Source of the DNA: Bryum argenteum
Taxonomy: Eukaryota; Streptophyta; Bryopsida; Bryales; Bryaceae
NCBI GenBank assembly: GCA_037043015.1
Contig: CM073321.1
Span: forward strand, 31,536,101-31,600,100
DNA: 64,000 nucleotides
Direction of reading: 5' to 3'
Under the pieces are notes generated by a model. The model was not told where the DNA came from, ran no database searches, and saw only the letters and a list, made by a program, of their open reading frames with translations. A program made the translations under genes and the position numbers. This document shows, piece by piece, positions 890 through 41,015 of the stretch (position 1 is the stretch's first letter; every line of letters starts with the position of its first letter).

Positions 890-1049
890 TTTCTTAATTT
901 GTATTCAACTTTATCTTAAAATTAATATAATTGAATTAAAATTTTATGAATTTATCTTCTACATAAGTATCTATGTATCTATATACGTGCTTATTTATTT
1001 ATTCATATACATTTGTACTCGTATATATATCTATATATACGTATATCTA

Positions 1050-1084
<35 letters not shown>

Positions 1085-2127
1085 TTTTTTAAAAAGTTAT
1101 TCCTATATATATTTGTACTCTTATGTGCATGTAATTGCGCTTTTTTCATTCTATAATAAGATAGCACAATAAATGCTTAATTTGTTATCAAATTTATCAA
1201 ACACAATTATACTTGAATTGAATTATTATGTATTTAAAATAATATGTATATATATATATGAATATTTATATTTATTCATTTTGCCCATTTATTTGTGCTA
1301 TTTTTATTCTATAAGTATTCTATGTTTTTTTAAGGTATTTTTTATAAGTAGTGTACCACATATTTGATTCTATTGATTGTGCCTAATTAAGTAAAGATTT
1401 GTCAATGGATTGTTCTCAGTTACACTAGTTACTCTAATTTTGTAATTATTATATCCTATTCAATAAATATATGAATACGAATTTGAATTTGTCTTCCACA
1501 AGTCATAGTTATGTATGAAATATTTAATTTTATGGAGAAAAATTTGAGATACAATCGTTTGTAAAATATAAAAAATCCATATTAAAGAATGTATTTCCCT
1601 CCAAAATCATTTTCCCGCCGAAACATCTTTGCCGCCTATTATTTTCAAAATCCCGTTTTAAAAAGTGGAATTCTATTTCAGAGCCTAATGAAGACAAAGT
1701 TCATATTGTGACAAAATGCGTCGGCTTTTTGCACGATATTGGGCGTTGAGGATACTCTCACGATGTAGCCGTTGAGGTCGGGCTGGGGTCGGGCTAGTCA
1801 GTCTCTCAACCTTTCCTTTCATTTTCTCTCACTATCGTCCGTGCTCTCAAGGTGCGCTTAGTTTGATATTCTCTTCCAGTGTGTGTGTTCAAGGTTGCGT
1901 GTTTGTGTACAAAGAGTTTGAGTTGGCGCTGACTGCGTCCGATGTAGTTTCTCATTTAGAGGTTTTAGTATTGTGGAAAAGGCGCATGATGTATTAGTTT
2001 GATTATGTTTCAAGTTATCACAGTTGCTCGTCATGTATTTTTCGACTTCTGAATTAGCTACTGATTGTTGTCCGTGGTTTTTTCAGTTGGGAGCCATACT
2101 TTTCCTTTCAAAATCTGCAGATCGCAG
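890..2127 (+). promoter_or_regulatory. Promoter and first non-coding exon of copy A
   Basis: This stretch aligns with 35,990-37,053 over its full length, including a block around 1137-1200, a GCGTCGGCTTTTTGCACGAT block near 1718, and a pyrimidine-rich CTCTC/TTTCC tract near 1800-1835 that looks like a plant transcription start and 5' UTR. It ends in a CGCAG|GTGAGCG splice donor kept in both copies. Conservation in an otherwise decayed region suggests it is the functional promoter and leader of the downstream gene; that role is inference. Confidence 0.55.
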
Positions 2128-3486
2128 GTGAGCGTGGTTCGCAAATTGAGTGCAAGGCACAATTCCTCAGTGTTTCAACACTTACTATTAATAGCATACA
2201 CGTTATCTACGGGTCGCGGATAACTTTTCTGTGTCTGTGGGTATTTTGTCTTGGAATATGTGCTCATTCACTAGATGAGGTCCATGCCGCACCTTATACG
2301 TCACTGTATAATATCGAGTGTTAGCTCGTTTTGAGGTCCGTAAATACCGACGATATTTCCGGGAGAATGTTTAAGCATACTGGTCCTTAGTGAACAAATT
2401 CAACTCAAGTCGAGTTGAAATTATATCTCCGTAGTATAGATGTCAACTTTCAACTGTACAATTTCAACTCAAGTCGAGTTAAATTGTAATTCATCAAGTA
2501 TCAGGCATGGTGTCAGAATCAAGAATGATATATTCATGGGTGTTGATATTCATTTCGAGTCGAGTTGAAATGGGAAATCCTCTAGTTTTAGTTGGATTAC
2601 CAACAAGGGGATGCTCCTTGTATTGGTGTGGAATTTGAAGTCGAGTCGAGTTGAAATTCACGGTGACTGTGGATATTCGACATGAACACTTGATATTGTA
2701 ATAAGCCCAATAATATTTAACTCGAATTGAGTTAAATATAAATTTTACATAATTGGAGATATATTCGTTAAGTATCAATAATATTCACAGAATCAAGAAT
2801 GCTATATCCCTGGGTGTTAATATTCAACTCGACTCGAGTTGAATAGGACATCATCAAGTCCTCTCGTTTATTCGCGAGAAGATAATCTGTTTCCGGAATC
2901 GAGTGATCAACTCGAGTCGAGTTGAAATTCAAGGAGCAGATTTCCGGCTGCACCATGCCATATTTTGATCACCCAGTAATATTTAACTCGAATCGAGTTA
3001 AATTAGGAATCTCACATAGTTAGATATATACTCAACTGTGCAATAGATTTGCTTTAAATATTTGTCGATATTCAACTAGACTTGAGTTAAATTCAAAAAT
3101 ATATTTGCGACCTAGAAGCAACTTAAGGACACTCTTAAGTCTAAATAAACTTGTATACAGTATACCGCATATATATGTTTTTTTTTGTGTCAATTTATAG
3201 GTACTTCTTAACTCATAGAGACGCTCGTGCCACTTAATATGCCTTAAGTATCTTGAGTACCAGATACTACGATAATGATTGTTTTAATAATTGTAGGATT
3301 ACTATACCGTGGATTTCAACTCAAGTCGAGTTGAATCTATTCATACATCTTTTCTTTTTCATAATAATTTCCTTCTATTTTTGATTCCTGGATCAAATTA
3401 GCGAATATATAAAACTGGGGAGGTTCAGTCATTAGAGTATTCATCTCGACTCGAGTTGAAACGCAACCGATTCTTTTGTTTCTAAG
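2128..3486 (+). other. Probable 5'-leader intron of copy A
   Basis: The donor GTGAGCG at 2128 is conserved with copy B (37,054). Two acceptors are possible: TTGTAG ending at 3296, or TTTGTTTCTAAG ending at 3486 directly before the ATG at 3489. If the second is used, the intron is 1359 nt and contains the complete palindrome array. The stretch has no open frame of note. Confidence 0.45.
2396..3464. repeat. Palindrome array A, core TCAACTCGAGTCGAGTTGA
   Basis: About eleven copies of one self-complementary motif, centred near 2410, 2472, 2561, 2650, 2728, 2833, 2916, 2993, 3080, 3324 and 3451. Some copies are exact palindromes, others carry one or two changes (AAGTCGAG, GAATCGAG), and the flanking bases extend the symmetry to ATTTCAACT...AGTTGAAAT. 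Spacing is mostly 60-105 bp. The intervening DNA is unique, so this is not a simple satellite. It looks like an array of sites for a dimeric DNA-binding protein. Confidence 0.9.
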
Positions 3487-3488
3487 CT

Positions 3489-6353
3489 ATGGTTTATGAT
3501 GATTTTTCAATCTCAACCATGGCTGCTAATGATGTTCAAATGCTTGGTGATTACTACTCTGATGAGGATGTTGTGGTGCAACCGGAGGAGCTGGAAAACG
3601 TTCCAAACTGTGAAGGTATCCCCCGGCGTCTTTGGGCTACTAAGTTCGTTACCCTTTATGGTGACGAGGGTCGCCCTGTAGCGGAGGGCCTATGTCACAG
3701 CATCAGTTATGATCTTGTTCTCGGTTGCAACGGTCCACTTGGGCACTCTCGAGTCGCAGTTCAGATCTTGAAGACCCTTGATGCCATTGTGGTGCCAGAT
3801 GAGTGGAGATACTCAGTCAATGCGTGGCCGTTCGATAAAGTCTCCTATAATGGGGCTAGTCTCAGAGACCATGAGATAAGACACGATCATGACTGTCGTG
3901 TTGCACTTCTTGCGAGACCTCAATCATCGCGTAGCGGACGTTACAACAATACAGCTCGGAACCCGCCTCGTGAAACATCCATCAAACCCAAAGGATTATT
4001 AGATGAGGAGTCTATCAATTCTGTGTCAAGCAAAGTTTGCTGCACCAGGAACATCGTTCAGCCCTTCCCGAGGGAGAAGATCCAATTTTTCCTAGAGCGG
4101 ATGTATAGTGGAACGACCTACCAATTCAGGTTTCACATGAAGCTTGACGTTCATAGGCAAGTTCATCGGAATGCTGACGGGAAGAGGGTGGTCATAGTTG
4201 AGGGAATCAATGTTTGCTTGCCTGCGTGGAGACATATTGCTGGAGTGTCGAAGGAAACATTCCATCGGTTTCAAACGTTTGTCGCAAATGGCGTCATGGC
4301 ACATCCCCATGGAAATTCGTCTTTGCTTAAGCCGCGCAAGCACACGTCGCAGGCAACTGCAACCTTGCGTTGCATCCTGGAGAACTCTCCGCATCACATG
4401 CCGCCCGAACGAGGACATTGAAATCTGGAGAGAAGGTTGTATCCATGATTCTTCCCTCTACATGGAAATGGAAGAGTGCCATCCCGGAGATCAACGCCGC
4501 AAATGAAGGCTTTGGTTTGAAGATGGTCTCGCCCTCTTCTCTAAGTAAAATTCGAAAGTTACACTTTCCTGAATTTGATGCCAAGAATCCCGGGGATAAC
4601 TTTGCTCGGTGCTCCAAATGTGATCGGTTGCACACACTCCATTGTGGCTCTTGTTCTGGGTCGCAACAAGCACTACTTTGGGCAAAGAAGCTCGAGGTAC
4701 ACTTGGTTGCAACCCGTGCTCATCGGGAGTTGTATTATGCAAACAGGTATAGGTTAAAAACTTACCCGCATTAGTGTTTGACCATTATGCATGACAAAAT
4801 GGATCCCGCAAAGACCGCTTCCCATGTCTTTACTCACAAGAGTAAGGAGCTCGATGGTCTAATGAAGGTACCAGTATTTGTCACGGGAATGATTGCTCAT
4901 GGCCACGGAGATGTACGCTACGCGCATTACGGTCTAGATATTTTCGCACACGATTCAAATTATATGGTGGGCTCTTTTGCTAAGCTGCTTCGAGATATAG
5001 AGTTGCCACCAAAGTCCTCTTCGAGAGAGCTTTTTGTTGGGTCGGGGTCGGCACCTATCTTTGATGCTGTTATCTCAAGTGCGGAGACTTGCATATCATG
5101 ACTCCGTCCAGCGCCACCTCTTCAACTTCGAGGGATTCCTTTTCCGCTAATTCTCAATGTTCAGATGGACAATGCAGCAGGTGACAACAAGAATAGATAT
5201 GTATTTTGTTTTTGGTCTCTCCTTGTCGCAAAGAAGATCTTCCGGGAGGTATACGTCAATTTCATGTTGGTTGGGCATACCCATGATGACATCGATGCAA
5301 TGTTTGGGCGGTGGAGCATGTTGTTGAGGAAAGACAATTTCCTCACTATTCCGATACTCATGAAATCTTTCATGGACGTGGAATCTATTCCAGCCATCCC
5401 CCATCTTGTTGAAGAGGTGCCGGATTTTAAAGGATTTATCGATGGGTTTACTAGGGATGGAGGGGAAGCACTTTCTGGTCATACGAAGGCACAACAATTC
5501 AAGTTTTTTTTGAATTCTACATGCTGTCCTGTGATGAAGGACAAGGTTTTGTGCACAGCAGAAGATTGATTGCCAAATGATACTAGTGGAATTAAGTTGT
5601 GGACATAGGACTCGGAAGGTTGTTGTTTGTGGCCACGTGGTGATCCAACTCCTACGACGCATCGTGCAATGAGGGGTGTGGAGGACATTGTGAAGGGCAT
5701 TTCTGGATTTATCAAGTACTGGGAGGCAATGTCTAATGAAGATAGAACTGGAGAGTATAGAAGATGCTATGAACATCTTGTGTTCTATTGGCGCTCTATG
5801 AAGGTAGCATTAGAGGTTCCCATTGAACCATTGAATGTTCTTTGGGACGGATTTTGGCCATTATCGAGAATAGATGCGACTTTGGAGGACCAACTTGCTG
5901 AAGATGGCGAACTTTGTGAGGAGTTTGAAGAGGATGAGGCCTATGTTGGAGAAATCCGAGATCGCCCTCAACCATCTTTTTGTGTAGCTCATGATGTTTA
6001 TGAAGGATACTTTTATTTGGCCTGCTGATGGTGACTTACGACCGGTGTGGATTGCTCGAGCGTTGTCAGATCCGAACATAAACCCCGAGCAGCCAAATTG
6101 CATTTTTATTCAATTCTTTCGGCCTACATCAAGGGATCGAGATGTGCAAAAGACCTACAATGGATGGGATTCGGTCAAAGGATTGCGTTGGAAGGTTGAC
6201 GATACTCAACCTCATTTGTGGGAGAATACAGCTTCATTGATGACTTCATGGAAGTCAAAGGTCAAGAAGTATACAACCGAGTGCACTTTAAAGATTCCGG
6301 TGGATCAAATCAAAGTCATTCACGATACTATAGTTGAATTTTCAAACGCTTGA
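3489..6353 (+). pseudogene. DUF7869-like protein gene, copy A (possible transposase)
   Basis: The coding part begins at the ATG at 3489 right after a splice-acceptor-like TTTCTAAG and runs, with several interruptions, to a stop at 6353. Recognisable blocks in order: an N-terminal half (3489-4421) with a CC...NIVQPFP motif; HGHGDVRYAHYGLDIF (near 4900); MDNAAGDNKNRYVF (near 5165); VGHTHDDIDAMFGRW (near 5270); and a C-terminal half with RDVYEGYF-type and GWDS blocks to 6353. The LDN...NKNR and VGHTHxDID pair is the hallmark I know from DUF7869-type proteins of unknown function. The spaced Asp residues would suit an RNase-H-fold nuclease, but that is unproven. Several in-frame stops and frame changes make this copy inactive unless some are introns. 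Confidence 0.65.
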
Positions 6354-7195
6354 AGGTCTTATATGTATTAAATTCGTATTTGTGTGTTGTAACAACTACA
6401 TAGTCATGGCTTTGTCTTACGACTTAGAAATTTTAATCGTTCGTTTCAAATTCAAAAGATTATAGGCATTCAAAAGTACAGAAGATATGTTGAACCAAAT
6501 GATCTACAAGGATGTGTGGTTTGGGATGTTCGTAGTATTGATGGGGTATGGAATATTTTTAAGTTACTTAGCTTGCTTCGAGCAACACTTTTTCGTAGTA
6601 CTGGGTTTCATTTGAAATCAAAAGTACATTGTACGCATTTATAAAATTATATTTCTATAATATATTACAGTGTAGGTTTGTTCTTTCCATTTAATATTTT
6701 TTCGATTGAATTCTGTTATTAAAAAAGATAACATGTATTTAACTTGTTCTAAAAGGTAGTAGTGGTTAGCACCACTGATGTTTATGTGCGTCATACATGT
6801 CACAATTACGGGTACGTGGCTGGTTGGTGGCACAAATTTTCCTGCCCGCCAAAGCTCACTTAGCAGTACCAAGTCATGTGTACATTTAGCTGCTCAAACG
6901 AGTCCGATCGGAATCGAACTCGGACCACCTTCGTTATACAGAGACTCCTTCTCATCCAACCACTCAGCTCATGACTTGGTGTCCATTTAAAAATTACTCT
7001 GGCCTTTATATTAATCAGTTGGAATTCCGACTTGGAAAGTCCACAATGCACAAACTTATCCCCCATATTATACTATAAATTGAATGGAAACTTTAAGATT
7101 CATAACTTTCTAAGTTATTTGTGTACAACAAAACATCAATCCAAAACCTTTGAATTTCATTTTGAGGGGATATTTAACTCTCAAATTGATGAATA
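6354..7195. other. Intergenic region with a SINE-like insertion
   Basis: AT-rich DNA between the DUF7869-like gene and the kinase-like gene. The only structure seen is the tRNA-like segment described separately. The open frames crossing it on either strand have no family resemblance. Confidence 0.6.
6775..6988 (-). mobile_element. Possible tRNA-derived SINE
   Basis: Read on the minus strand, the sequence from about 6988 has GAGCTGAGTGGTTGGATG (A-box-like), then about 35 nt, then GAGTTCGATTCC (B-box-like), the spacing of a tRNA promoter. A unique body of about 120 nt follows. It has no poly-A tail and I could not define target duplications; CAAGTCATG occurs in inverted orientation on both sides of the head. 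It may be a decayed SINE or a tRNA relic. Confidence 0.4.
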
Positions 7196-8567
7196 TTGTG
7201 TTATAAGTGCAAGAACTTTCTTCTGGAGAATGTAATTGTAAAATTTTATGAGACCAACAGTCTTGCAGGTTTGTTCAGCAAATACGTGAGACACAAAGAG
7301 AAAGCCCCTACCAAATTCAAAGAGGAGATGACGGACCTCATGATGGAAGCGCTCCAAGATCCGATGTGGAGACCGGAGACTGATAAGCGTGGATTTACGG
7401 AGTGGTTGAATCTGAATTAGTCGATGCTCTATGGAACGCAATCGACATATTGAAGAAGTACCAGAAAACGCATCAAGCGGATGATATGGAGTTCAGGGAT
7501 GTGGTATTGAGGGCCGAGAGTCTTCAATAGGCGATGAGGCCGTATTCCAACAATCAAAACCAGCGCGGCTCCATAAAATGGTGGAACATGGAGGAAGGAA
7601 AGTTACTCGACCAGGGTCATATGAATAATTTGATAGTAATTCCTGGCACGACCTATATAATTGAACTTGAGAGAAAGAGTCTAAGAGGTGGTCACGGCAC
7701 ATTGAAGAGGTATTGGAAATTTGCTGCAAAGACTCCCAAGCATGCAATGATACGACCAGACTTGGCCAAAGTAGAGCATCAAAATGAGGCGTTCACCGTG
7801 AGGATAGGGCATCCAAGTGTTATTTGTTTTATCGCAATTTATTCAAATAAGTACCAAGGCTATACGTATGGGTGGGATGGCGGGACGATTCGAGCAATAG
7901 TGGCCCTTGATGCAGAGTATGGAGATGATGTTCATGAAAGCATCGCACTCACACCTCATTCAGATGATGAGCTTATTCGAGCTTGGCAGTTGGTTCGGTT
8001 TCGCAAAAAACAAACTGAGCTTGCTTTGGCTCTAGTGCATATCATGAGTGAAGTCACCGGATGAACTACCTCCACAACGTTGTGTCACCAGACAACATAC
8101 TTCTTCACTTCCCTCAAGATGAATCACAAGTGTATATTGGTGTATGCGATTGGAGGTTAACCACGAGCATGGATGATAAAATGAGGTCCTTGTACACGTT
8201 CACGAAACCCGAAGATAGAATCGATACCCTACGAGCAAGATATTGGATGGATCCTCGGGTGGCGTACTTGTACAAAGAGAGTAATCACATTGACATTATT
8301 CCCTTCTATGATAGAGCTTCAGAGGAGTTTGCTACGGTTCAGATAGCACAACGAATCCTCAAGAAGACCATGTCCACGGCCTACGAGAATTTGCAACATA
8401 CAACAGGGCCTGACCGGTGGTCAAATCAAGACCTTGCAAATGCTTCTGACCAATACTTAGAGATGGTGGCAGATGCAAAGTTTATGTTGTCCCACATTGT
8501 CAACCGCTTCATGGAATCATTCCATTGGCCGGTGTCGAATGACCATTTTTGCACCAAGTACAAATAG
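7196..8567 (+). pseudogene. Protein-kinase-like gene of copy A (HRD-less)
   Basis: Three open segments (7196-7420, 7534-8064, 8061-8567) follow each other on the plus strand. The middle one carries an N-lobe-like part with a GGHGTLKR stretch resembling a glycine loop. The last has LHNVVSPDNILLHF, in the place of the catalytic loop HRDLKPDN, and YIGVCDWRL, in the place of DFG. The catalytic HRD aspartate is therefore absent and DFG is DWR/DWG, which argues for a pseudokinase or a very divergent kinase. The middle and last segments overlap by ATGA with a change of frame right before the catalytic loop, and the first is separated by stops, so the copy is probably dead. It lies in tandem behind the DUF7869-like gene and tail to tail with gene X. 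Confidence 0.5.
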
Positions 8568-11064: not shown

Positions 11065-11069
11065 CCTTG
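11065..11069. repeat. Target site duplication, left (CCTTG)
   Basis: CCTTG immediately before the 5' LTR equals CCTTG at 19,118-19,122 immediately after the 3' LTR. A 5-bp duplication is normal for Ty3/gypsy integrases and fixes both ends of the element. Confidence 0.9.
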
Positions 11070-12359
11070 TGTCGCGCACCTCTCCTTGAGGAGTGCCCGC
11101 AACACCAAGGGCCCAAGGGGGACACCGGAGTGACGCCCGGGCCTTGGGGTGCCAAGGTGAAGGGAACCTAAGTGGGCCTAGTGTGGGAGAGGACCCCGGG
11201 CGTTGGAGACGCCTCTCACCCACGGAGACTAGGAGCCACGAGGGAATGGACATGAGATTATGGAAGCTCATGTTGCCACGATTCCGGGATGCTAAGGAGC
11301 ACCTCATTTGGAGGTGTGAGCTAAAAGTTATGGGAGTTGGAAGATTGTGGGACTAAAGGGAGTGCTGTCCAGGGACAGTGCTGGACTGGGAAGCTGGCCC
11401 GGGACTCCCGAATCTTCAGAGGGGCATAACTCCCTCAATACTTGTCGGATTGAGGCAAGTAAGGTGTCTATCGGCATCTACTTGACGAGTAGATGTCGAT
11501 AGAGTGGTCGCTCGTCGCGTTTGGATGCGGGACGAGGTAGATACGAGCCCTGGAAGGTTCGGGAAGTCTCCCGGGGCCTTCCAGCGGCTAAGGCATTGGG
11601 AGATTGGGTGGTCTTCCAAAACTAAGAGGTGTGAGGGTCCAGCCCTTCACCTAGGACCAGGGGGCTGCCGAATCCCACAGAGTATACTATGGGGAGGGCT
11701 GGTCTCCTCCCCACTCCCATGGTGCCTTGGTGGTGACCAAGGTGGGAGTCCCAGTGGTGTGGCTAGTGTTGGGGCCTCACCATGGGGACTCCCAAGCCAA
11801 GGTGAGTCCCAATGGGTGGAGCTAGTGTTGGGGCTCCACCATGGGGACTCAAAGTGCAAAATGAGGCACGGTGGGTGGAGCTAGTGTTGGGGCTTCACCA
11901 CGGTGGCTCATAAGGACAAGGTGAGTCCCGGGGGGAGCTAGTGTTGGGGCTTCACCACGGGGACTCATATGGGCAAAATGAGGACCATGAGTGCTACCGA
12001 TGTGGGGTGGTGTCTCACCGCCGGCGTTGTGATTACTTGGTGGCCTTGGGGTCACCATGGTGGTCATGGGCGGTGGTGAGGAGACACCACCAAGTGCGGT
12101 TAGGCCGCGTGGTATGGGAGTGCCACCAAGTTGGGCCTTGGACATAAGTGGAAGTCCGCACCTAACCATTGGCTACCTACGAAGGGGTTGAGTCCCGGTT
12201 GCATGAGTAGGAGGGATTGATAACCAAGCGGTGAGCTTGGTGGTTGGTATGGAGAGCTAACTTTGTGCATGTGGGGATGTGCGAGTTAGCGCTCGTGACA
12301 CTTGCTAGAGTTGGGAAAAAGTTGGTGTAAGCTAAGGTGAGCTAGCAAGGGTTGCGACA
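11070..12359 (+). repeat. 5' LTR of the chromovirus
   Basis: 1290 bp, TG...CA ends, nearly identical to 17,827-19,117. It includes internal near-repeats of the type GGTGGAGCTAGTGTTGGGGC spaced by about 60-75 bp (11,760-11,960), which may be enhancer-like units. Confidence 0.92.
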
Positions 12360-12360
12360 C

Positions 12361-12372
12361 TTGGTATCGAGC
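12361..12372 (+). other. Primer binding site, initiator-Met tRNA type
   Basis: TTGGTATCGAGC directly behind the 5' LTR resembles the common plant primer site TGGTATCAGAGC, complementary to the 3' end of initiator methionine tRNA. Confidence 0.6.
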
Positions 12373-12409
12373 GGGCTTTTAGTACCCAAGTGCAAAGTTG
12401 TGAGGAGCA

Positions 12410-17030: not shown

Positions 17031-17826
17031 GAGGACATCAATCTCCGTAGTGGGGAGGATGACTTGTAGCTTGGGCGTAGATCCACAACACTTGTACTTG
17101 TTCTTTGGATTTGGCAATAAAGTTTGGCTTTGGTGTGTGCAAAGAGAAGAGTATGAGATGGAGTCCTAGTCTTGTACTTGTGCTAAGTTGGTGGAAGAGG
17201 GGGAATAGAGATGTGAAACCGAGTTGGGAAGGCCGAGTAATGGGGACCAAGGCTAGGAGAAAGAGTGGATAAAACCATGAAGTCCCTTGGCCTTGGGCTT
17301 GTCCGGGCGGGGACAAGGTAATGGCGCGTGCTCATAAAAGCGCCACTCCCACAAACTAGTGCAAGCTAGTGCATGGGAGTCATGAACCCATGCCTTGAAA
17401 GAGATAGTGGGATCCGAGTTGGGCGGAACTTGGCATTACCCCGTGCGATCGAGTCGTGGTGTAAAAGCCATCTTGGGTTTGCAACCAAGACAACTTGGTG
17501 GAAGCATTGAGGTCCACCCTAGTAGTCAAGGAAGAAGTGTTAGGCTAGTGGAGCCGAACTTGGAGAGCCAAGGTAAGGGCAATCCAAGAGGGTCTCAAAG
17601 TAGGTGGGTCTAGAGTAGTTTAGTTGCCTTGGAAGAAGTCCAGGGTTCTAAACCGACCACCTAGTGACGACACCTTTGAGACTTTGCCAAAGTTTGAGAG
17701 TGTATTGTGGGGGTCGCGCCCGGTGAAACACAATGTTTGCACCAATGGGGATGGCAACCCAAGAGTTGGTGTGACCGACTACAAGTATAGTCGATGAGGG
17801 CATCGACTCCATTAGGTGGGGGTGAG
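17031..17826 (+). other. 3' untranslated part of the chromovirus
   Basis: About 800 bp between the chromodomain and the 3' LTR with no open frame that resembles a known protein. Long 3' non-coding regions are known in plant chromoviruses. The sequence directly before the LTR (ATTAGGTGGGGGTGAG) is the likely polypurine tract. Confidence 0.6.
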
Positions 17827-19117: not shown

Positions 19118-19122
19118 CCTTG

Positions 19123-26716: not shown

Positions 26717-27285
26717 TTTTTTGAAGAAGAATGAAATAAACATAACACTACCCACCAGTATATTTTCTAGTCTTAATATAAATTCGGATTCTAAAATCAA
26801 ATATATGGTTAAACCATTAGAGTGATAAATTTAATTGTATATAGTATTGGGAAGAAGAATGAAATAAACATGATACTACCCACCATTATATCCTTTAGTC
26901 TTAATATAAATAGTAAGCTTAAAATCAAATATATGGATAAACCATTAGGATGCTAGATTTATTTGTAATATAGTATTGGGAAGAAGAATGAAATCAACAA
27001 AATCTTACCCACCACTATATTCTTTAGTCTTAATATTAAAAGTAAGCGTAAAATTAAACATATGGTTAAACCATTAGGATGATATATTAATTCGTAATAT
27101 AGTATTGGGAAGAAGAATGAAATAAACATAATACTACCCACCATTATATCCTTTAGTCTTAATATAAATAGTAAGCGTAAGATTAAGTATATGGTTAAAC
27201 CATTAGAATGAAAGATTTATTTGTAATATAGTATTGGAAAGAAGAATGAAATGTACATAATACTACCCACCACTATAATTTATGG
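26717..27285 (+). repeat. Five tandem units of about 130 bp
   Basis: Each unit starts GAAGAAGAATGAAAT (26,717, 26,850, 26,980, 27,109, 27,238) and contains ACTACCCACCA, TTTAGTCTTAATAT and ATATGGTTAAACCATTAG. The last unit is partial. The units differ by several changes each. TGGTTAAACCA inside each unit is itself a palindrome. Confidence 0.88.
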
Positions 27286-29039: not shown

Positions 29040-32000
29040 CAAGACCATCATGCGACAAGTATGTAGAGATATATGTAACTTTTCAACACATTAAATATAG
29101 TCATGTAGACAATAGAATCTCCATATGCATTGGAGTATAACAATAAAGTACTACAAAAAATTATAACTACAATATTTATAATCAGGATAAGTTCTATGAA
29201 ACCTATACTACATATAGATGCAAAATTCAACCACTCATCAGGACCACATGATTTTTCATAATCACTATCTCCCTTCACTTCAGCTCCACTAGATCCCGTA
29301 GGATCATGTTCATAATCGCTCGGAACCTCTTGTTTGAACTTGGGCTCGTTCTCTGAACATTGTATATTCCCATACTTATGCAAAGTAACAAATTCCGGGA
29401 GATTAACGGGGATCTTTGGTTTTTTTGGCGGAACAATTGGAAGCTTTGTAGATTTACATTTATGCGACTTGGAAGTGCCAAGCATGTGCTATAACCCCGT
29501 GGCAGTACGAGGAACATTGACATTATTGAAATACCTGCCCAAAGGTACATCCGAGTCACTAGAGATGCTGCCATATTTGGCTCTTGAAAGGGATACCAAA
29601 CCCATAGAGGATTTCTCCAAGGTTGTCGTAACCCTTACAGTAGAGGGTTGAAATAAAGCGCGGGGAGTAGCACATGGTAAAGATAGTTGATCCTTTCTAC
29701 AGGATGCGATATTCTCTGCGACCGGATCAGAGCTCATAGTGCTGGCACTAGTATTACACGCGGTAGTTATTACGTCTATCGCCTCCTTTTCCAACCCTAA
29801 ACCAGTAGCGATAATAGGTGGGATGTTATTCGATTTGTCCATGCCGCCTTGAGTCATTAACCGTGCTAACAGCTGCTCATCCTCTAAATCATTCGCCAAA
29901 GCACCATATGCGATAAAATCACCCTTAGCATCGTGAATATCTAGAGCATCTTCATCATTTGAAGTGGGGAAGAAAGTCATATTATTGTCTTCATCACCAA
30001 ATTCAAAAATATCATTGTCATCAAACAATGAATCGTGCTCGACAACTTCCTCATCATTTTCATGTACTTGGTCTTCCTCTAAATCTAAGTTCTCTCTGTA
30101 CCGCCGCCTATCGTCACTCAACTTATCATTCGCAAGCAATTTTGAGTTTGAATATATGTTGATGAAGTCATGAGCTCTCCCCGATAGTAACTCGTTCCGT
30201 TTCTTGTCGTAAACATAAGAATAGCTACTCCAGTTGCGTTTGCAAGCCAACGAGGACACGGTCTGTGCTAGTATTCGCTTTGCAAATGGAGAGAGAAGTT
30301 TAGCACAAGCACCTTCAAACTCCCATTATGCATGTGGAGCTAGTTTTTGAGTCTTAGGCTCGAGCATGTCATGGAGCGGTGGACCCCTTATTCGAAACAC
30401 GAGAAATTCACTCAGCACGTCTGCATAATCCTCCGGTGGACATAGTTTTTGTAAAACACGCTTGCAAGCTATTGTAAGATCGGGATTGTCAGCTAACTCT
30501 TGTTCATGTAGTAAATAAGAATTTAGAAGTGCAGCCGCGCCATGTAAATCAGTTGTCATGAGCCGTTTCCGATGGTAAAACTCCTCCTTTGCAGTGGCCA
30601 CCTCAAGTGGTTCCAAAGAGAATATCGATGCATGCAAAGTATGGACATGTCTCTCAAGATCAGGCATGATATGCCAAGCCTTGCCCGTACTAGGAGCCTT
30701 GCCGTCAAATTCTCTCAGAGCGTAGACTACGGGGCCACGACATCTTGTAATCTTATGCATTGCTTCCAAAAATCATCGCTCAACACCACCTTTTTGACCT
30801 TACGGGAGAATATAAGCTTATCTCTAGCTGATACCGTCTTCGTCAACGCATAGGCTGTGAACATAGGATCAACAACAACTTGCTCCAATGATGTCTTGAC
30901 CTCCAACAAACAATCCATCATTATGAATTGGCTAGCAAATCTTGTTTTTCCAGGCATCAATAGGCTGAATTTCGCCTTGTGTTTACAAAACACAACTAGG
31001 GGCATTTGCCATCTCTGGATAAACTTAACCATTCTCTTGGCCATGAACAAAGTTTACGCCATCCATCCAGCCTTTTGCCAATCCTCCAACAACAAGTCCA
31101 TTGCATGTGTTGCACACCCTTGCCTAAAAATGTGCGGATATTTCTCAAGGACTATTCTGGAGGCATTGAGCATTACAGAAACATTGTCTTTGCATACTTC
31201 GACAATGTTCTCTAGTCCAACTTGTTCTATGTACTTTAACATGAGAGATAACATGTACACCGCTATTTTTTCTATGCCAGTATTATCCACAGCTCCAAGA
31301 AAAAGCTCTCCAGCTTGAGTCACAAGCATCGCATTTACCAAACTAAAGGCGACTAGTCACAAATGACCATCCATCCATGGTCAAAGTTCCTCCAAACTTC
31401 CAAAGGCTCTTTGACAGTCTACTATCTAGTTTCTTTTGTAAGTCGGTCTTTACTTCTCCCAACAACCTTGTCCGATAAAGATGGTGGAGCATAGGATTTT
31501 CAAAATCTAGCAGTCTCCATTATAGCTGCTTTGAACGCATAAATCCGGGCTACAGAAAATGGTATATATTTGCTTTGTAGAAAAATTTCGCCCAAAGTTT
31601 ATCCAACTCCCGCCTCTCCGCTTCTGCAAAAGTAGCTTCAATTGAAGATTGCTTGGTTTGCTTCATAGATCCCAACATCGGGCGAGTATCCTTAATTCCC
31701 CTCATAAGGATGGAAGAAGCAGAGGTTGGCCCGACCGAAAGATTTGCTGAATTCATGGGGGTGCCTAGAGAGGACCCTACACAAGAGTCACTTCTAGGGA
31801 CTTCTAGAATGTCATGTTTTGAGGCACCCGGAACATCCGCGGATGGAGTGAGAGAACATTCACCAAGAAATCCGTCCAATTCTCCGTTATATGGAGGGAA
31901 CCCCCGCCACATCTTATAAAAAACTGCCTAATTTCCCTAGGCAGCTTTGGACAAAGGACAAAACTCGAATCTCGATGTCCAGGAAATTTCTCGTACCTAT

Positions 32001-32707: not shown

Positions 32708-33770
32708 GCTGTAACATCCGAGGCCGGGGATAATTGTGAGCCAAGCATTGAGTTTCAGAAAAATAATGAACGTGACGTCCCTAGGACGCTAGAATGTTTG
32801 TTTTTCTAGCTGCCTTGTAATGGAGATATCCTTTCTTACGGAAATCTTATGTCTATTCTGTGAAGTCACTCAGATTAAACCTTGGTATTGTGTTTTCTGT
32901 CTGTCTATTGTTATGCTACATGATTCAAATGGACAGAATTATTCCTGGCCCGGGGATAATTCATTGTATTTAAGCTGCTAAGTACGCCACGGGCTAAGTT
33001 GTATCTTTATTTTGGGGAAAATTTGTCATACTTCTATAAGAGATTACGGACGACTTACAGAATTATCCTCGTGCCGGGGATAATTTCTGCGTGTGAAGAT
33101 GTTTCCAATATCTAGGCTTAGCATAAGCCTGTCGGCTTACAAATACTTTGTCGTCGTCCTATGAATATTTATGGAAAAATAAACTATATACTAGGTCGGT
33201 GATAATTATTTCTAATCGAGGTGATATCTAGGGTTAAGTTTAGGAATTATTCCCGGGGCGGGGATAATCTCCTGTCGTTCTATGTAAACCTGAGGCAAAA
33301 CAACAAAATTATCCCCCGGCCGGGGATAACTGTTACTTCAATGGTTGATATGTCTTATAATGTTCAGGGGTTATCCCCAGGTCAAGGATAATCTATTGTT
33401 GTTGTGTGGTAAACCATGGCAAGATGACGGAATTATCCCCAGGCCGAGGATAATCGTTACTTTTATGGTGGATATTTATGAATATGTTTAGGATATTATT
33501 TCCGGTTCGGGGATAATCTGCTGATATTATATGGTAAATTGTGCCGAAATAACAAAATTATCTTCGGGCCAGGGAGAATTGTTACTTTTGAAGACTATAT
33601 TTACGGCTTTGTTTAGGAAATATCCCCGGCCAGGGAATTATTTGTAGTCTTTTTTTGTTAAAGCATGGCAGAATTACAATATTATGCTCGGCCCGGGGAT
33701 AATTCCTTCGTACATAAGACACATACTCGGCTGTGCGCAAGATTTATCCCCGGCCCGGAGATAACATTGG
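32708..33770. repeat. Palindrome array B1, core TATCCCCGGCCCGGGGATA
   Basis: Thirteen copies centred near 32,721, 32,951, 33,074, 33,203 (half), 33,256, 33,319, 33,381, 33,442, 33,505, 33,568, 33,630, 33,692 and 33,753. The last nine are spaced 61-63 bp. Two kinds of spacer alternate: one beginning around a TTGTTGTGTGGTAAA theme, one beginning TTACTTTTATGG, so the true tandem unit is about 125 bp with two palindromes. Individual palindromes carry up to four changes but keep CCGG at the centre and ATAAT at the edge. Upstream of the hAT gene on the minus strand. Confidence 0.92.
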
Positions 33771-35989
33771 TAGTCAGTGATGAAATATCGTGCATTGGCA
33801 TGCAGGGAATCATGTGAAACGAAGCCTATATTTACAACCGACGTAGATTTTAGCATTCAACAGCAATTTCAATCAATTTTAATGATTTCTTCAATCCAAG
33901 CAAAACAAATAGGATTTGGAGCTCACTAGAAAGACTGCTTAGTGAAAGTTGGATGTGCTATAGCAAAGTAAAACCCAATTTGATGTTGAGTATAATTAAA
34001 TACTGCACTTCCAACGCCTTCGAACGAGAAACCTTCAACACAAAAATAGCAAATAGAACTGAATGAGCTGAAACCTTGATACCAATTCACCGCGTCAATG
34101 TATACAGCTCTAGCAAAGTCAATGTGTTGAGATAGAAAATCTAGTGAGAACAAGTACCGAAAAAAATTTGAAGCATGATGGGCGCCTCCGCTGCTGTTGG
34201 TGAGTCCAGTAGCTGCTCCTTGTACCTCAAAACGCAAAATTTAACAGACTGTATTACAACTCTTTCCACCAAACTTCACAATCCACCTCTTTCCACTAAG
34301 TTCTTGCAATAGTCTCTGTAGACAGCAAAAGACAGGAAACAATACTCGAGCTCGATGAACAAGAGTGAAGACCTAGACTCCGCGCTCACTTAAATTGTAA
34401 GCTCTCTTACAAACTCCAACAGTCAAGCTCCACATTGAAACAAGAAAAGCAACAAGGACCTATAGATACAACACAAACAAACGAGCAGGACGACAAGGGA
34501 AGTGCGGAAAGCAAACGAGGAGGACAGCGTAAGCGAAAGCGCAGAGAACAAACGAGGAGGACGACGTAAGTGCAGAAAGCAAAGGAAGAGAACGATGAGC
34601 GGAGAAGCGGAGAAGAAAAGCTCCGGGATGGAGGAAACAGATAGCAAAAGAGGGGAGGAATGACGGCGAAGAGGGGTCATCATGACCCCCTGCTATCATT
34701 ACACTCATGGCCATGCCCATAATCATGTGCATGGGTATGGACATGTACATGCCTATGCACATGATCATGGGCATGGCAAGTTCTTTTTTCAATAATTAAA
34801 TTACGCTACTTTCTATCATTTTTCATCTAAGTTCGCTTTAATCAAAAGGGTGCACGTATAATAATTTAGGTATTCTTTGTTTAGATTCTAGTATTGTAAA
34901 TTACTTTTAGGACGTTTGTGTTCAAGGTTTAGTATTCCAAGTCTAATTTTCTAAATTAAGTATTTAGTTTTCTTCTAAGTATTCCACGTACTTAGTTTAT
35001 TGGAAAGTATAGTACTCTAAGAACGTTATTCTGGCTTCAATAAATAGTCTTGAATGTTCACATATGAATACTAAGTTACTTATTCTAAACTTGATTCTTA
35101 ATTTTGAATACATTCTTTAACTAAAATTACTTATACATGTATTTTTGAATTCCGCTCTCATTGTCCAACTTTGTTACTAATATTAGTACCGACCTTAGGT
35201 TTATCTTTTGTAAGAATTGGCTATTTTTCTCAGCCTATTTGTACCCACGTGAGACATTTCCATAAAAGTTGTTGATAAACATACTTAAATCGCAATCCTA
35301 TGTTTCGTCACTTCTTAGACTTATTGTACATGGGTAGGTCCCAAACCCTAGTCCACACTCGAGGAAATTCACATGAAGGAATTAGAGCCTAGCAATTGAA
35401 TTTTTGCAAAGTCTCAACACATATGTAAATGTAAAAGAACTCTCTATATTCCAACCGCACATTTCATAGAAGACTTGTTCAAGGTTATCTATATCGCATT
35501 TAAAGTCTTCAGGCTTCATAGATTGCGTGAATGTAACATGTAAATACTCTGAAGATATCACAGAGTTTCATCATTGTCAATTTCAAACAAAAATAAAGGA
35601 CCCTTAACCCTAAACCTTAAACCCTAGACGCTAAATAACATGAATTCATGCAAGGTCATAATAAATGTATTAGGTCTAAATACAATATTTAAAAGTAGTA
35701 TTCCTTGTCTTTGAAATGGAATTCATACCAACATTGCAATTATAATAACATCTATGAATCTAAAATCTCTTCACCTTAACCTAAAACCTCTATTTCTTCA
35801 AAAGTAATTTTTTCTAATATATTAGTAAAAAAATGTGCTATTGGACTAGAGTAAAGTTTTTAAACATAAGGAATAAAACATGGTTCAATGAAAGCTTAGT
35901 TTGCAGTCAACTTTAGGCCTCATCTTGTAAACATCTATAAATGAATTAAGTTTTTATGAATTTAAATTCTACTCTCTTTTTATATATAT
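33771..35989. other. Spacer between arrays B1 and the copy B leader
   Basis: No gene supported. Contains a primer-site-like GATACCAA on the minus strand (about 34,080), a purine-rich GA tract (34,440-34,670), two strong palindromes (34,672-34,777, separate entry), then AT-rich DNA with degenerate CCCTAAACC words. Frames at 34,423-34,792 on the minus strand are low complexity. Confidence 0.5.
34672..34777. repeat. Two adjacent palindromes
   Basis: GGGGTCATCATGACCCC (about 34,674-34,690) is a perfect palindrome around one base. Twenty bases later, 34,710-34,777 forms a hairpin with arms of about 31-34 nt beginning GCCATGCCCAT and centred on ACATGTACATG, with a few mismatches. ATG/CAT-rich wording makes the whole segment self-complementary. 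Confidence 0.75.
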
Positions 35990-37053
35990 ATATATATTCA
36001 ACCGATATGAGCATTTATTGCGCTTTTTTCATTCTATATTAAGATAGCACAATAAATGCTTAATTTGTATTCAAATTTATCTTATACACAATTATAATTG
36101 AATTAAGATGCTATGAATTTAACATCTATACTCGTATCTATATATATATATATATCTATATATATAGATATATATTTATAGATAGATTTATTCATATGCA
36201 CTTTTAGTTGTGCTATTTTTATCCTAGGTTAGTATGCTATATTTTCCTAAGGTAGTTTTTTATAAGTAGTATACCACATATTTGATTCCATTGATTGTGC
36301 CTAATTGGATTAAATTTTGTCAATGTAATGTACTCAATTACTCTAGTTACTCTTATTTCGTAATTATTATATTCTATTCAATAAATATATGAATACAAAT
36401 TTGTATTCTTTATCTACTAGTCATAGTTATGTATAAAATGTTTAATTTTGTGGAGAAACCGTTAAGATACAATTGTTTCTAAAAAATAATAAATGCATCT
36501 TTTTGAATGGATTTCCCGCCAAAATGGGTTTCCCGCCGAAACATCTTTGCCACCGAATACTTTCAAAATTTCAGTTCTTAAAAGTGGTATATCTACTTCG
36601 TAGCCTTATGAAGACAAAATTCATGTTGCGACAAAATGCGTCGGCTTTTTGCACGATATCGGGCGTTGAGGATACTTTCACAAGGTAGCCATTGAGGTCG
36701 GGCTCGTATTGGTAACCCAGTCTTTCAATCTTTCCTTTCATTTTCTCTCACTCTTATTCGTGCTTTTAAGTTGGGCTTAGTTTGATATTTCGTTCCGGTG
36801 TGTATGTTCAAAGTTGCGTGTTTGTGTAGATGGAGTTCGAGTTGGTACTGACTGCGTCTGATTTAGTTTCTCATTTAGAGGTTTCAGTTTTGTAAAAGAG
36901 GCGCATGATGTATTAGTTTGATTATGTTTCAAGTTATGACAGTTGCTCGTCATGTATTTTTTGACTTCTATATTCGCTTCTGATTGCTGTGTGTGGTTTC
37001 TTCAGTTGCGACTTGCGAGCCCTACTTTTCCTCTCGAAATCTGCAATTCGCAG
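35990..37053 (+). promoter_or_regulatory. Promoter and first non-coding exon of copy B
   Basis: Aligns with 890-2127 of copy A, including the CGCTTTTTTCATTCTAT block (36,021), GCGTCGGCTTTTTGCACGAT (36,638), pyrimidine-rich TTTCCTTTCATTTTCTCTC (36,730) and the CGCAG|GTGAGCG donor. Long TA microsatellites (35,980, 36,140-36,180) differ between copies. Since the hAT gene is divergent from here, the same region might serve both genes; that is inference. Confidence 0.55.
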
Positions 37054-38308
37054 GTGAGCGTGGTTCGCAATTTGAGTGCAAGGCACAAGTCTTCAGTATT
37101 TCACCACTTACTATTTACAGCACGCACTTTATCCCCAAGTCAATGATAACTTTTCTGTCTCTGTGGGGAATATGTCCTAGAATATTTGCTCATTTATTGG
37201 ATGAGTATCTACGCAGCGAGGATCATTTCGCACCTTACACGTCACTGTATATTATCCCCGGGACGGGGATAATAAATGTTTTCGTGGGCAGTTGCATAGT
37301 CATCCCAGGTGCAGGGATATATCCCTATACAGAGCTTACTGAGTATTATTCCCGGGTATGGGGATATCAGTGGTTTTAGCGGCAGTTTAATAATTATGCC
37401 CGTGTCGGGGAAAATATCTTTTTCTAATTTACTAATCGTCATCCTCGAGCCGGAGATATGATTTGTCTGCATCGACATGAGAATATTTATCACCAAACCA
37501 ATCCGGGGATAATTTATGTCTTTCTCATATTGTTCATTATCCTGGTGTGGGGGACCCTTCTCTTGTTCTCCATGATGTTATCCTCGGGCCGGGGATAATA
37601 TGTCCGTCTCAGAGATCGAATAACAGACTTTTGCATCAAACATAAACAGTTTGTCGAGAATACTTTCTACGCCCTACATTTAACATTGTTGTTGCCGAGC
37701 AAGGAGTCATCTCTCCTACTCTAAAGATGGTCTATTTTCCCCGGGCCGGAGATACCTGTGGCGCAACTATTGCCTTAGATTTCTAATAATTTGATCATGG
37801 TTGCATGTCTGGCGCTTGTATGTTAGCATCCGGTTAGTTGTTGACAATGTGTACGCATGTAAATGACTTTTGGCCTATTTGATTCATGTCGCGCATTCTT
37901 GTGCACATGCCTTTGTTTTGGTCATTATTCTCAAAACGTGGATAACAATACTTAATGTCAGGGTTTGGTGATTATCCCCGGTCCGGGGATTACCTTACTA
38001 TCGGGTATCATATAATTGTTGGATCCAATGAGCGGATTATACTCACATTAAACTTGTCTTTATATAGTTTGAATGAAATAAGATATCCACAAGTCGGTGT
38101 TAAATTGAATATGTCCCTCTGTTCCATTTAAGGCTGTATATGTGTTATAAAATGTGTTTACGGGTCGTGCACAGATTATATAGTATCGATTGATTTTGGA
38201 ATAATTAGCATTGGATTTCTATGCTTTCATGTTCTCGCTCTTCATATCATCTCGTTTAGTATTAACCGAGCACTAAGTTATTTTAATCAATCTTCTCCGT
38301 TTTTGTAG
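37054..38308 (+). other. Probable 5'-leader intron of copy B
   Basis: Donor GTGAGCG at 37,054 is shared with copy A; acceptor TTCTCCGTTTTTGTAG ends at 38,308. The 1255-nt interval holds the entire B2 palindrome array and no open frame. Confidence 0.5.
37249..37992. repeat. Palindrome array B2, core TATCCCCGGCCCGGGGATA
   Basis: About ten copies centred near 37,261, 37,309, 37,355, 37,403, 37,450, 37,500, 37,547, 37,590, 37,748 and 37,980, the first eight spaced 43-50 bp. Same motif as array B1 but with different spacing and different spacers. It starts at the very base where alignment with copy A ends. Confidence 0.9.
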
Positions 38309-38402
38309 GATTGAGACTTTCGTCGTCAACGGGGTCAATTTTCGTCCACCAATTGTGACCCATGGTGTTGCAATGTGAGAGGGTTTCAACCGTTCATCAT
38401 GA

Positions 38403-41015
38403 GTGTCGAAACGAGCCACTCTTCTAAATGACGTCAGTGTCGACCTAGCACAAACTGTCTGTCAATCGCTTGACCCTAGCGTTGTTCCAAAGACTGGTAG
38501 TTGGCCTCTCAGATCTGAATTTGTCTGCGTGCAGATAGTAGAGTCATTAGTAGAAGCAGAGGTTCTTTTCCGTTGGATCTACTCTTTGCGTGCATGGCCA
38601 ATCACGCTTGTCCTTTTCAACGCAGCAAGTCTCTACGACCACGACCAACGCGCCATAATCAATGCTGCTTGCAAGGTTTTCGGTCGACCACCACAAATTG
38701 GCCTTCGCCAGTACAATAGCAAACGCTAAAGGCGTCTTCGAGATTCACCACCAAAAAAAGCAGTACTTTCTTACATCGGAGTCCATCAACTTTATTGCCA
38801 CAACTTATTGTTGTCCAAAGAATTGTGTGCATCCCTATCCTTGAGGCAAAAGTAAAGGTCTGAGGTTCCAATTCTATGTTTGCGGCGATGTTTACTTCTG
38901 AAAACATTGTCTCCTTAGTATGCATGGTCATCAATGCCGTCTCAAGACGGATAACAAGCGTAGGACCATGGAAATTGTCGTTCAAATAAACCTCGTATCT
39001 AGACATTGCAAGCTACAGCATCCCTTCAGGCCATTGTGGAAAATGTTGCTGATCTCATGCCTCATCGAATGAAGACTATTGATGCAATCGAGAAGGTAGT
39101 GTCCAAATGCTTGCCCTCTCCCGACCATTGGAGGGACAATTTACTAGAGGTAAATGCCATCAATGCAGTCCACAGTCTTCCTCCTATATCAAATTTGGCT
39201 CTAAGTAGGATCAGGCAAGACTCATTCCAAGAGTACTATTTCAAGCAAGAGGGTGATACATTTGCGCGTTGTAGTGAATGTGACAAAATCAAACAACTTC
39301 AAGCATCCAGTACTTGAGGCAGTCGCGCATGGGCTTTTTATGTTGCCAAATTTAAACGTCATAATTCTTCTCAAATGGCGCATAGGTTGCTCTATTATAG
39401 CAACCGTTTGGAGTCTGAGGCAAGGCCCAAATTGTCTTTGTGCATTATTCATAACAAAATGGATCATTCCAAGACAGCCTCTCCGCAATTCTCTCACAAG
39501 AGTAAATCAACCGATTCCTTCATGTAATTGTCGGTTTCCATCACTGGCATGATTGTTCATGGACACGGAGATGTATGTTACGCACATTACGGCCTCGATA
39601 TATATCCGACGGATTCAAATCATACTATCGGTTCATATGCTCAGCTGCTAAGAGATTTGGAATCTCCTCGAAAGTGATCTTTGAGGCAGTTGTTTAGAGG
39701 TGGAAGAAGTAGCTCTCTCTTTGAGGATGTTTTGGATGGGGCGGACATGTACTTGGATTGGCTTGGTCTTCTCCTGGAGGCACCAATCCCGGCAAAGACT
39801 CTTCCTCCGGTGCTACACATGCAGCTTGATAATGCTTGCGGAGATAATAAAAATCGGTTTGTTTTTGCAATTCTTTTCATGGCTCGTTAACAAGGCCGTT
39901 TTTAGAGAAATATACTTGAAATTCCTTATCGTGGGTCACACTCTTGAAGATATTGAAGCTCTTTTTGGGCAATAGAGTAGTAAGCTCAAGACCAATAGCT
40001 ACCCTACCGTTCTCCTTCTCATGAGATCCTTCATGGACACAGAGGATAAGCCGGTTATTCCTCAGTTAATTGAGAAAGTTTCTGATTTCAAGATGTTCAT
40101 CAAAGGTTACCTTTGTGATGGCGACGAGGCGTTATCTGGGTTTACAAGTGCCAAACAATTCGGGTTTTTTAAAGATGCTTCTGGCTGGCCTTTGATGGAG
40201 TACAAAATTCTGTGTACGAATAGCGAGTGGCTTCCTCAAGATAGTGAAGGGGTTAGGTTGTGGAAAGTTATACCAATGATTTCAGGTTCCTCTTAGGGAT
40301 CCAACGTTACTAGTTTCAAATGAAATGAAGAAAATTGAAGACATTTGAGAGGGAATTTGTGAGCTTGTGGGAGTCACAGGCGGATGCAGATCCAACAGGC
40401 GACTATCGTAGACGTCATGAACAATTCATTTACTATTGGAAAGCAGTTTGTGAGGCTTTAGATTTACCCCTTCCTACTCCATCAATGTTTAAGGATGGAT
40501 TTTGGCCTACTTCTAGGTACTCTCCAAGTGAAGAGGATTGATTTGAAAACAACGAAGAATTGCGCGACGAATTTGTTGTTGATCCTCCGTTTGTAGGGCA
40601 AATACAAGATCGTCCACAGGCATCATTCAGAGTTGGACGGGATGTTTATGAGGGATACCTACTTGTGCTACGTCCGGCTGAAGGAGATCTCAATTTTTTT
40701 TGGATAGCTCGTGCGTTGAGCAACCCAAATGCTAGTGTAGAGCATCCTCTGGAAAGCCACATTAAGTATTGGAAACTAGTATCTTCTATACATGTCAATC
40801 CTGACACTTACGAAGGGTGGGATACAAGAAGAGGTAACTCTTGGTATAAAGATACGGATTATGATCCAACTTGGGTGGCTACAACATCAATCATGGGAGC
40901 TTGGAAGCCAAGATTGTGTCTTGAAACCGTTACTCCCAAGATGTGCATATCGGAACTACAAATTTCAATTATTAAGGACTCAAGTATCGATTTTGATGAG
41001 TTGTTTTCTCGTTAA
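38403..41015 (+). pseudogene. DUF7869-like protein gene, copy B
   Basis: Homologous to 3489-6353 block by block: AWPI...NAASLYDHD (38,590) matches AWPF...NGASLRDHE; LDNACGDNKNRFVF (39,825) matches MDNAAGDNKNRYVF; IVGHTLEDIEALFG (39,920) matches MVGHTHDDIDAMFG; GRDVYEGYL (40,640), YEGWDTRRGNSW (40,810) and the last helix to 41,015 match the C-terminal half. The second His of HTH and the last Asp of DID are changed (HTL, DIE). The reading is broken more often than in copy A. The protein divergence between the copies is considerable, so they are different subfamilies and not recent duplicates. Confidence 0.65.

Follow-up and report, generated by a model that had tools for sequence, protein, structure and literature searches.

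The palindrome arrays described here lie in a window of 64,000 nucleotides from the moss Bryum argenteum (contig C1, positions 31536101-31600100) that holds copies of two related transposons, A and B. Together with a third group, C, they make up three subfamilies within a single family of large cut-and-paste DNA transposons in this moss; each subfamily has its own palindromic motif, and the three motifs follow the tree of the element's DUF7869 protein. A slight balance of probability favours the view that a subfamily-specific dimeric protein encoded by the element recognises the palindromes as its double-stranded DNA sites. Most likely the product of the element's second gene (gene 2), this protein would coat its own element and keep it active. 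The original prediction had covered only one half of the element, namely the leader, the array and the DUF7869-like gene; the divergent gene 2, with the same motif in its putative introns, is a better candidate for the DNA-binding protein. The features of the two window copies that bear on this view are the following:

2400-3459, no strand: array of 11 A palindromes, TCAACTCGANTCGAGTTGA, in a putative intron upstream of the DUF7869 start codon
3486-6353, plus strand: DUF7869 gene of element A, broken, the probable transposase gene (PF25273, E 1.2e-33 on 5102-5566)
7178-7202, minus strand: right terminal inverted repeat of element A, AACACAATATTCATCAATTTGAGAG on the minus strand
32940-33763, no strand: left B array with 11 palindromes at intervals of mostly about 62 bp, corresponding in fuller B elements to gene 2 intron 1
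37253-37991, no strand: right B array, 7 palindromes with at most 5 mismatches from TATCCCCGGNCCGGGGATA
38309-41015, plus strand: DUF7869 gene of element B, broken, its start taken from a putative splice acceptor
41538-41562, minus strand: right terminal inverted repeat of element B, AAAGGGATATTAAGTATTTTGAGAC on the minus strand

The 11 sites of the A array agree with the number first proposed. About ten had been proposed for B, where the array is real but holds seven sites at the tolerance given above, and both the left B array and a pair of C palindromes (24057, 24336) had been overlooked.

The genome surveyed amounts to 258.8 Mb in 25 contigs; the DNA examined outside the window comes to about 291 kb, mostly from C1, and ten 20-kb loci were taken, five chosen by A sites and five by B sites. 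Terminal inverted repeats and target duplications of a fixed length of 4 bp, which characterise cut-and-paste DNA transposons, are both present. Three complete A elements (J09, J11 and J13), with ends determined from the alignment of copies, are 17.3-17.7 kb long and are flanked by duplications of ATAT, AAGG and GCGG, respectively. Their terminal repeat, AACACCATATTCATTATTTTGAGAG, is perfect at both ends of J11, is represented by 22 matching bases in J09 and shows two mismatches at one end of J13. B ends consist of AAGGGGATATT followed by TTATTTTGAGAC or a near variant, and one B copy is flanked by a duplication of ATAG. The copy J09 is inserted in the DUF7869 gene of a C element, and since another C element displays the empty site GCGCATATGCGG, four base pairs must have been duplicated on insertion. 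Genome-wide searches retrieved 116+118 matches to the A end (up to 3 mismatches) and 85+97 to the B end (up to 2 mismatches), with zero matches for the controls. The ends read AACACC and AAGGGG, and those of A and B are still similar though their palindromes are unrelated.

The DUF7869 gene occupies the right part of the element, and the multi-exon gene 2 lies to its left on the opposite strand, followed on that same strand by an NIF/FCP1 phosphatase domain (PF03031). The DUF7869 protein is the probable transposase. The domain is well supported in another copy, L010 (PF25273, E 2.4e-36), and among named sequences the window gene is closest to those of two mosses, Ceratodon purpureus and Physcomitrium patens. 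Both window copies contain stop codons and frameshifts; that of element B is 86-90% identical in DNA to B elements over the aligned pieces and has a tblastn match to a Ceratodon DUF7869 protein. The homology of the A and B genes holds mainly at the protein level (41% identity over the aligned length, 51% in the core), as in the DNA only 4774-5025 aligns with 39434-39685, at 70%. In Physcomitrium, gene 2 and the FCP1/NIF domain are fused in one protein of 1491 residues, and in Ceratodon both genes are adjacent, judging by the locus names KC19_3G000200 and KC19_3G000300. The window yielded no exons of B gene 2; at the place expected for this gene, on the left side of the left B array, the minus strand encodes a hAT dimerisation domain (29489-30325; PF05699, E 1.4e-6).

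The palindromes are distributed over both genes. Judging by splice signals, the intron that immediately precedes the DUF7869 start codon would hold the right array and intron 1 of gene 2 the left one, with further palindromes in introns 2 and 3 and beyond the stop codon of gene 2. The pair in intron 2 is 76 bp apart in both A (J09, J11, J13) and B (J19, J21) and 170 bp apart in J25 and J27, while the remainder of this intron aligns poorly. In a C element, palindromes lie between gene 2 exons, intron 3 carrying them. The motif is the same in both genes of one element for A, for B and for one C element. Complete A elements contain 31 (J09), 31 (J11) and 35 (J13) sites at up to 4 mismatches, with no site within the outer 1.3 kb on the left or 3.3 kb on the right. 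In three copies, five, two and two B palindromes fall within an open frame, all nine in one phase and with spacings divisible by three, so that they encode YPRAGDN-like peptides. These repeats lie within the low-complexity tail of B gene 2 (L019, 3442-5631 on the minus strand, and equivalents).

Genome-wide, searches with up to 3 mismatches located about 2,750 A motifs (strand counts 2775 and 2749; control 34/24) and about 2,130 B motifs (2134/2131; control 5/3); for the C motif, TTAGCTCGANTCGAGCTAA, about 10,400 were located with up to 2 mismatches (10391/10394; control 2/1). Forward and reverse counts refer mostly to the same places, the sites being near-palindromes, and as a perfect C site is four positions off A, a few decayed C sites may enter the A count.

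The association of each motif with one subfamily, as originally predicted, is supported by the leader loci, the terminal-repeat ends and the DUF7869 tree. Within 3 mismatches, the five loci picked by A sites contained zero B sites, and the five picked by B sites zero A sites. Twenty of 124 leader loci were inspected, picked mainly by closeness to the leader pattern; two of them had no listed exact site of A or B in the vicinity and were hoped to contain a third motif. Fourteen have A sites downstream of the leader (12 with 6-12 sites, 2 with one), five have B arrays, one has neither and, the relic leader site described below aside, none has both. J25, without a leader or DUF7869 part, and L043, without an array, were excluded as rows. 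On C1 below 26.2 Mb, 25 of 32 clusters of exact A sites lie at most 18 kb from a listed A end or leader, where 3.3 were expected, and none lies at most 18 kb from an exact B site. For 24 B clusters in the same region, 12 are near a leader (1.6 expected) and none near an exact A site; 7 of the 32 A clusters and 12 of the 24 B clusters have no listed end or leader nearby. Among ends recognised there by the terminal repeat, an exact A site lies inside 25 of 35 A ends and a B site inside none, with neither motif outside; B sites lie inside 21 of 37 B ends and an A site inside one, with no B and two A sites outside. The sole B end with an internal A site has an A end 8.8 kb away. As the cluster and end lists contain exact sites only, misses do not mean empty elements. 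In a 45-row DUF7869 tree built by a quick method, A and B form separate starred groups and C groups elsewhere, with one Ceratodon protein each beside A and beside C, from the 3G and the VG series, respectively. Two outcomes that would have spoken against this association, namely that the palindromes are genome-wide satellites unrelated to the elements or that motifs are mixed within a clade, were not encountered in the parts sampled, the former being rejected there by the association with clusters and ends.

In subfamily C, one element has seven C sites ahead of its DUF7869 gene with no A or B site there. The window contains a small relative:

24004-24407, no strand: non-autonomous relative, a miniature inverted-repeat transposable element (MITE) of 404 bp with target site duplication TAAA and, about 53 bp in from either end, a C palindrome (24057, 24336)

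The long inverted repeat of this MITE matches at 83%. Scoring of 40 of 718 first-look candidates from the genome gave 80 matches counting both strands, and a clear 4-bp duplication was read by eye in 15 of 20 copies. CpG retention is 0.89 at four places against 0.68 at three, a weak contrast. That the MITEs keep the sites suggests an additional role of the palindromes in cis, either in mobilisation or in escaping silencing.

The two window copies look alike up to their arrays because the leader of element A was replaced by a B leader. The features concerned are:

280-594, plus strand: A-type sequence left of the leader, a remnant of the middle of element A (87-91% to five pure-A elements)
890-2315, plus strand: leader of element A, a B-derived tract, probably promoter and 5' untranslated region, ending at the junction
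2122-2144, plus strand: 3' end of the leader with putative splice donor CGCAG/GTGAGCG of the intron before the DUF7869 start codon, from sequence only
2204-2222, no strand: palindrome of B type, a relic in element A, with 4 mismatches from the B motif
2302-2319, plus strand: B/A junction CACTGTATAATATCGAGT, by sequence comparison
35987-37256, plus strand: leader of element B

The homology of the two leaders, noticed at the outset, is confirmed by alignment of 1104-2315 with 35987-37256 (80.8% identity) and of 893-985 with 36059-36152 (82%). The donor pattern has 59+65 matches genome-wide at up to 3 mismatches (control 0). The original prediction placed the break in the alignment at the first palindrome. 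This is correct for B (37253), but the A copy stops aligning at about 2315, at a recombination junction that precedes its first A palindrome by 85 bp. The further claim, that the motif had been exchanged in place behind a conserved leader, is contradicted by the leader tree, the relic B site and the shared junction.

Pure-A and pure-B leaders are distinct, being 73-86% alike, and the leader tree separates a pure-A group (5 rows, support 100/99) from all other rows, which comprise all B leaders together with window A and its like. A single clade of all A-array copies is rejected in 31-row tests (p-AU 3.65e-6; 2.75e-5 with the upstream columns only), whereas an 11-row leader test does not reject it (p-AU 0.109). 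Copies of the window-A type have a B-type palindrome 82-91 bp after the start of the donor pattern and then pure-A intron sequence, and the junction pattern is present in all 16 of them, in three by a looser form. At the position of the relic site, 15 other copies of this type show 1-8 mismatches, all four pure-B copies show 0, and all five pure-A copies show 8-10, that is, no site. At E 1e-20, none of the fetched B elements matches the A-type sequence at 280-594. A B-derived left half of these chimeras is ruled out by one sister copy, whose gene 2 DNA is 80-88% identical to pure A and contains 21 A sites and no B site, and which has an A-type end 12.6 kb left of its leader. The A-type DNA left of the leader, the relic B site, the shared junction and the leader tree together show that an A element received a leader tract from B by recombination, after which the chimeric type multiplied.

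In the chimeric copies the relic B site has on average 3.5 mismatches, with at most two in 2 of 13 copies, whereas their A sites have on average 2.13, with at most two in 74% of 130 cells, misaligned cells included. Of 10 B elements, 8 keep the same B site within two mismatches; window B is among the two that do not. L035 and L042 (one site each) and L043 were left out of this comparison, and as the chimeric copies are related, the decay reflects one or a few events rather than 13.

Conservation within the arrays is also concentrated on the palindromes. Among B units of about 62 bp from five elements, column agreement is 0.84-0.94 in the palindromes, 0.54-0.66 in the spacers and 0.47-0.51 in shuffled sequences, although this contrast is overstated to some degree, the units having been located via the palindrome itself (up to 6 mismatches). 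Double changes are mostly uncompensated (312 A and 250 B sites, not independent), and in motif B compensated changes exceed chance at no pair; on balance, DNA recognition is favoured over RNA pairing.

On the reading to which the slight preference is given here, the element would encode a dimeric, subfamily-specific DNA-binding protein that coats its own element via many sites in introns and coding sequence, and this coating would keep the element active by anti-silencing or self-activation, as has been shown for VANC proteins. The same protein may perhaps help to mobilise small relatives with only ends and sites. Gene 2 is proposed as the binder because it diverges most between the subfamilies: its identity is 27-32% between A and B and 32-35% between A and C, against 40-50% and 51-56% for DUF7869, though the gene 2 rows were built from tblastn pieces with E up to 10, the C row has 189 residues and the identities may be understated. 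The protein row of J09A, which possibly includes a neighbouring C fragment, was not relied on. A stretch, IKDG.F...GQH.V.AS, is invariant in four aligned gene 2 sequences (A, B, Ceratodon and Physcomitrium); an additional pair of Physcomitrium proteins comprises one with IKEG and one without the stretch. Profile searches with gene 2 did not recover the N-terminal domain of ParB, and in Pfam one protein matched DUF6551 at E 0.06; when relatives of gene 2 were sought by profile, two moss proteins were returned, and PDB sequence and profile searches with the element proteins gave no useful match. Going further, the palindromes could be a compatibility code, in which the gene 2 protein may load on parS-like sites distributed over introns and even in its own coding sequence and so mark the DNA against silencing; the code would have been swapped whole at least twice with site positions kept, a palindrome transplanted into a foreign subfamily would lose its meaning and decay, and MITEs that keep the sites would parasitise one code. 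This extension is doubtful.

Several observations weigh against the preferred reading. Full A elements have no palindromes at their ends, unlike typical sites of transposases. The likeness of gene 2 to ParB/DGQHR proteins is a motif read by eye, and the label rests on that; profile searches gave nothing significant, the best PDB profile match being unrelated at E 0.58. Faster divergence of gene 2 could equally reflect weak constraint. With only three subfamilies, there are at most two or three motif switches, and subfamily C is known from one element, fragments and the MITE. Conservation of palindromes over the remaining sequence is weak in the chimera arrays (0.924 versus 0.900) and slight in the MITEs (0.953 and 0.968 versus 0.935), and the B site at the relic position is decayed in window B too, with 6 mismatches. 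Finally, in motif A compensated changes are above chance at pairs 3/19 (60 versus 26) and 5/17 (15 versus 1) and number 3 versus 0.7 by chance at pair 10/12, as would be expected from RNA pairing.

Among the other explanations, it is conceivable, though rather unlikely, that the DUF7869 transposase itself recognises the palindromes as enhancer or synapsis sites. This would fit the many copies of small relatives that are reduced to ends and palindromes, the latter set about 53 bp in from either end, and the DUF7869 tree likewise separates A, B and C. However, in complete A elements the left end is separated from the nearest site by 1.4-3 kb and the right end by 3.4-3.8 kb, most sites are in putative introns, and the ends of A and B have remained similar while their palindromes are unrelated. 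Binding by a host factor or the host methylation machinery, with family differences arising by drift, appears improbable. Each of motifs A and B contains two CpG pairs, and in motif A the CpG positions are among those more often mutated, as this explanation would have it; yet it predicts a common motif, whereas the same nucleus contains three motifs, unrelated or diverged, each of which is restricted in the samples to a single subfamily of this element family. Nor did another recurrent palindrome turn up: an exact 7+1+7 palindrome search of the window, the 20-kb loci, L026 and L051 found none besides A, B and C more than three times. Little credence is given to the arrays as neutral satellites that spread by slippage in tolerant introns, with the motif as a founder effect. 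Array copy number does vary and the tandem units measure 43-47 or about 62 bp, but the spacers are far more diverged than the palindromes (with the bias from unit location noted above), sites occur in introns of both genes in all three subfamilies, and copies are kept within the open frame and in MITEs. Least probable is an action of the palindromes as intronic RNA hairpins in splicing, export or small RNA formation, for although the sites of full elements lie in or beside putatively transcribed regions and pairs 3/19 and 5/17 of motif A are in its favour, compensation is near chance at the other A pairs and at all B pairs, and MITEs, which are probably untranscribed, retain the sites.

Known systems offer partial parallels to a coating protein with its own sites. 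VANDALs are Mutator-like elements (MULEs) with a MULE transposase and target duplications of about 9 bp; membership in this group is excluded by the 4-bp duplications and the ends, and no MULE domain was found in the element proteins scanned. For VANC proteins and VANDAL21 and VANDAL6 in Arabidopsis, family-specific short motifs form dense arrays in introns and upstream regions and have spread by tandem repeats (PMC5735166). Protection from silencing or self-activation has been shown for VANC proteins, and the motifs are in one orientation; the word palindrome is absent from the passages of that paper used here (PMC5735166). The likeness thus consists in family-specific motif arrays in noncoding DNA, with an element-encoded partner that is suspected here and proven there. 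The moss elements differ by their DUF7869 transposase candidate, 4-bp duplications, long palindromes and, for B, sites also in the coding frame. By analogy, the mechanism is probably VANC-like but unrelated to VANC/VANDAL. The idea that the proteins are unrelated to VANC and TnpA is not contradicted, as a Pfam scan of the element proteins tested gave nothing above the cut-off besides DUF7869 and NIF.

In Spm/CACTA elements, TnpA binds repeated subterminal sites, for which a role in demethylation has been proposed, and the elements are marked by CACTA ends and duplications of 3 bp. The moss elements share with them the repeated sites for an element-encoded protein, predicted in the present case, but here the ends are AACACC/AAGGGG, the duplication is 4 bp and the sites are not subterminal in full A elements; membership in CACTA/Spm is ruled out by the 4-bp duplications and the non-CACTA ends. 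Bacterial ParB-parS systems have clusters of palindromic sites beside the parB gene. The moss elements resemble them in palindrome clusters next to a gene with a similar sequence motif, but are eukaryotic transposons with no significant ParB profile match.

Sola1 transposons generate a 4-bp target duplication. The family described here probably belongs to the Sola1 superfamily, by duplication length and element descriptions rather than by transposase homology. In Ectocarpus, the giant element Sola1-1_Ec32 encodes a ParB-like accessory gene on the strand opposite the transposase, and this protein has a DNA methyltransferase domain (PMC12477816). A review table records Sola1 in Physcomitrella (PMC9033089), and 4-bp duplications have been reported for Sola2 (PMC3627910). 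It is the ParB-like gene of Ectocarpus, the Physcomitrella listing and the 4-bp duplications that make Sola1 the most likely superfamily. Both are very large DNA transposons with a divergent accessory gene, ParB-like there by description and here by eye only; the Ectocarpus protein has a methyltransferase domain, and the moss elements have an FCP1/NIF phosphatase domain. Palindrome arrays are not mentioned in the passages on Ectocarpus Sola1 (PMC12477816). No description of this transposon family was found in the titles and abstract openings searched, Repbase and subscription papers being outside that search, and DUF7869 is not named in the literature searched.

The elements are concentrated on C1, which makes up 17% of the genome: it holds 63 of the 76 leader matches with at most 2 mismatches and, among exact ends, 69 of 96 for A and 35 of 66 for B, and the scored MITE copies show no comparable concentration. 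Two Ceratodon relatives bear VG locus names on a 110.5-Mb contig that is by name the V chromosome. Because of this concentration and these locus names, C1 may be a sex chromosome. In addition, the window contains direct repeats at 11069-12364 and 17826-19123 (99.2% identical), between which a Ty3-like reverse transcriptase and integrase were recognised by eye, probably a young long terminal repeat retrotransposon. A 25-bp tandem repeat, TCGGCAGTAGAGCTAAAGTATAGCC, occurs at 45132-45269 and 50512-50594 within longer repeats that are 98.7% identical, and a 129-bp tandem repeat (26723-27277, 4.3 copies) adjoins long G-rich/C-rich low-complexity stretches.

If the preferred reading is correct, transposon self-recognition by family-specific arrays would have arisen a second time, outside MULEs and with palindromic instead of one-way sites. 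The presence in one moss genome of three codes and a natural swap, the B leader on A elements, would make the co-evolution of protein and sites directly testable. It would also provide a function for about 15,000 palindromes in a 259-Mb genome, and a context for DUF7869.

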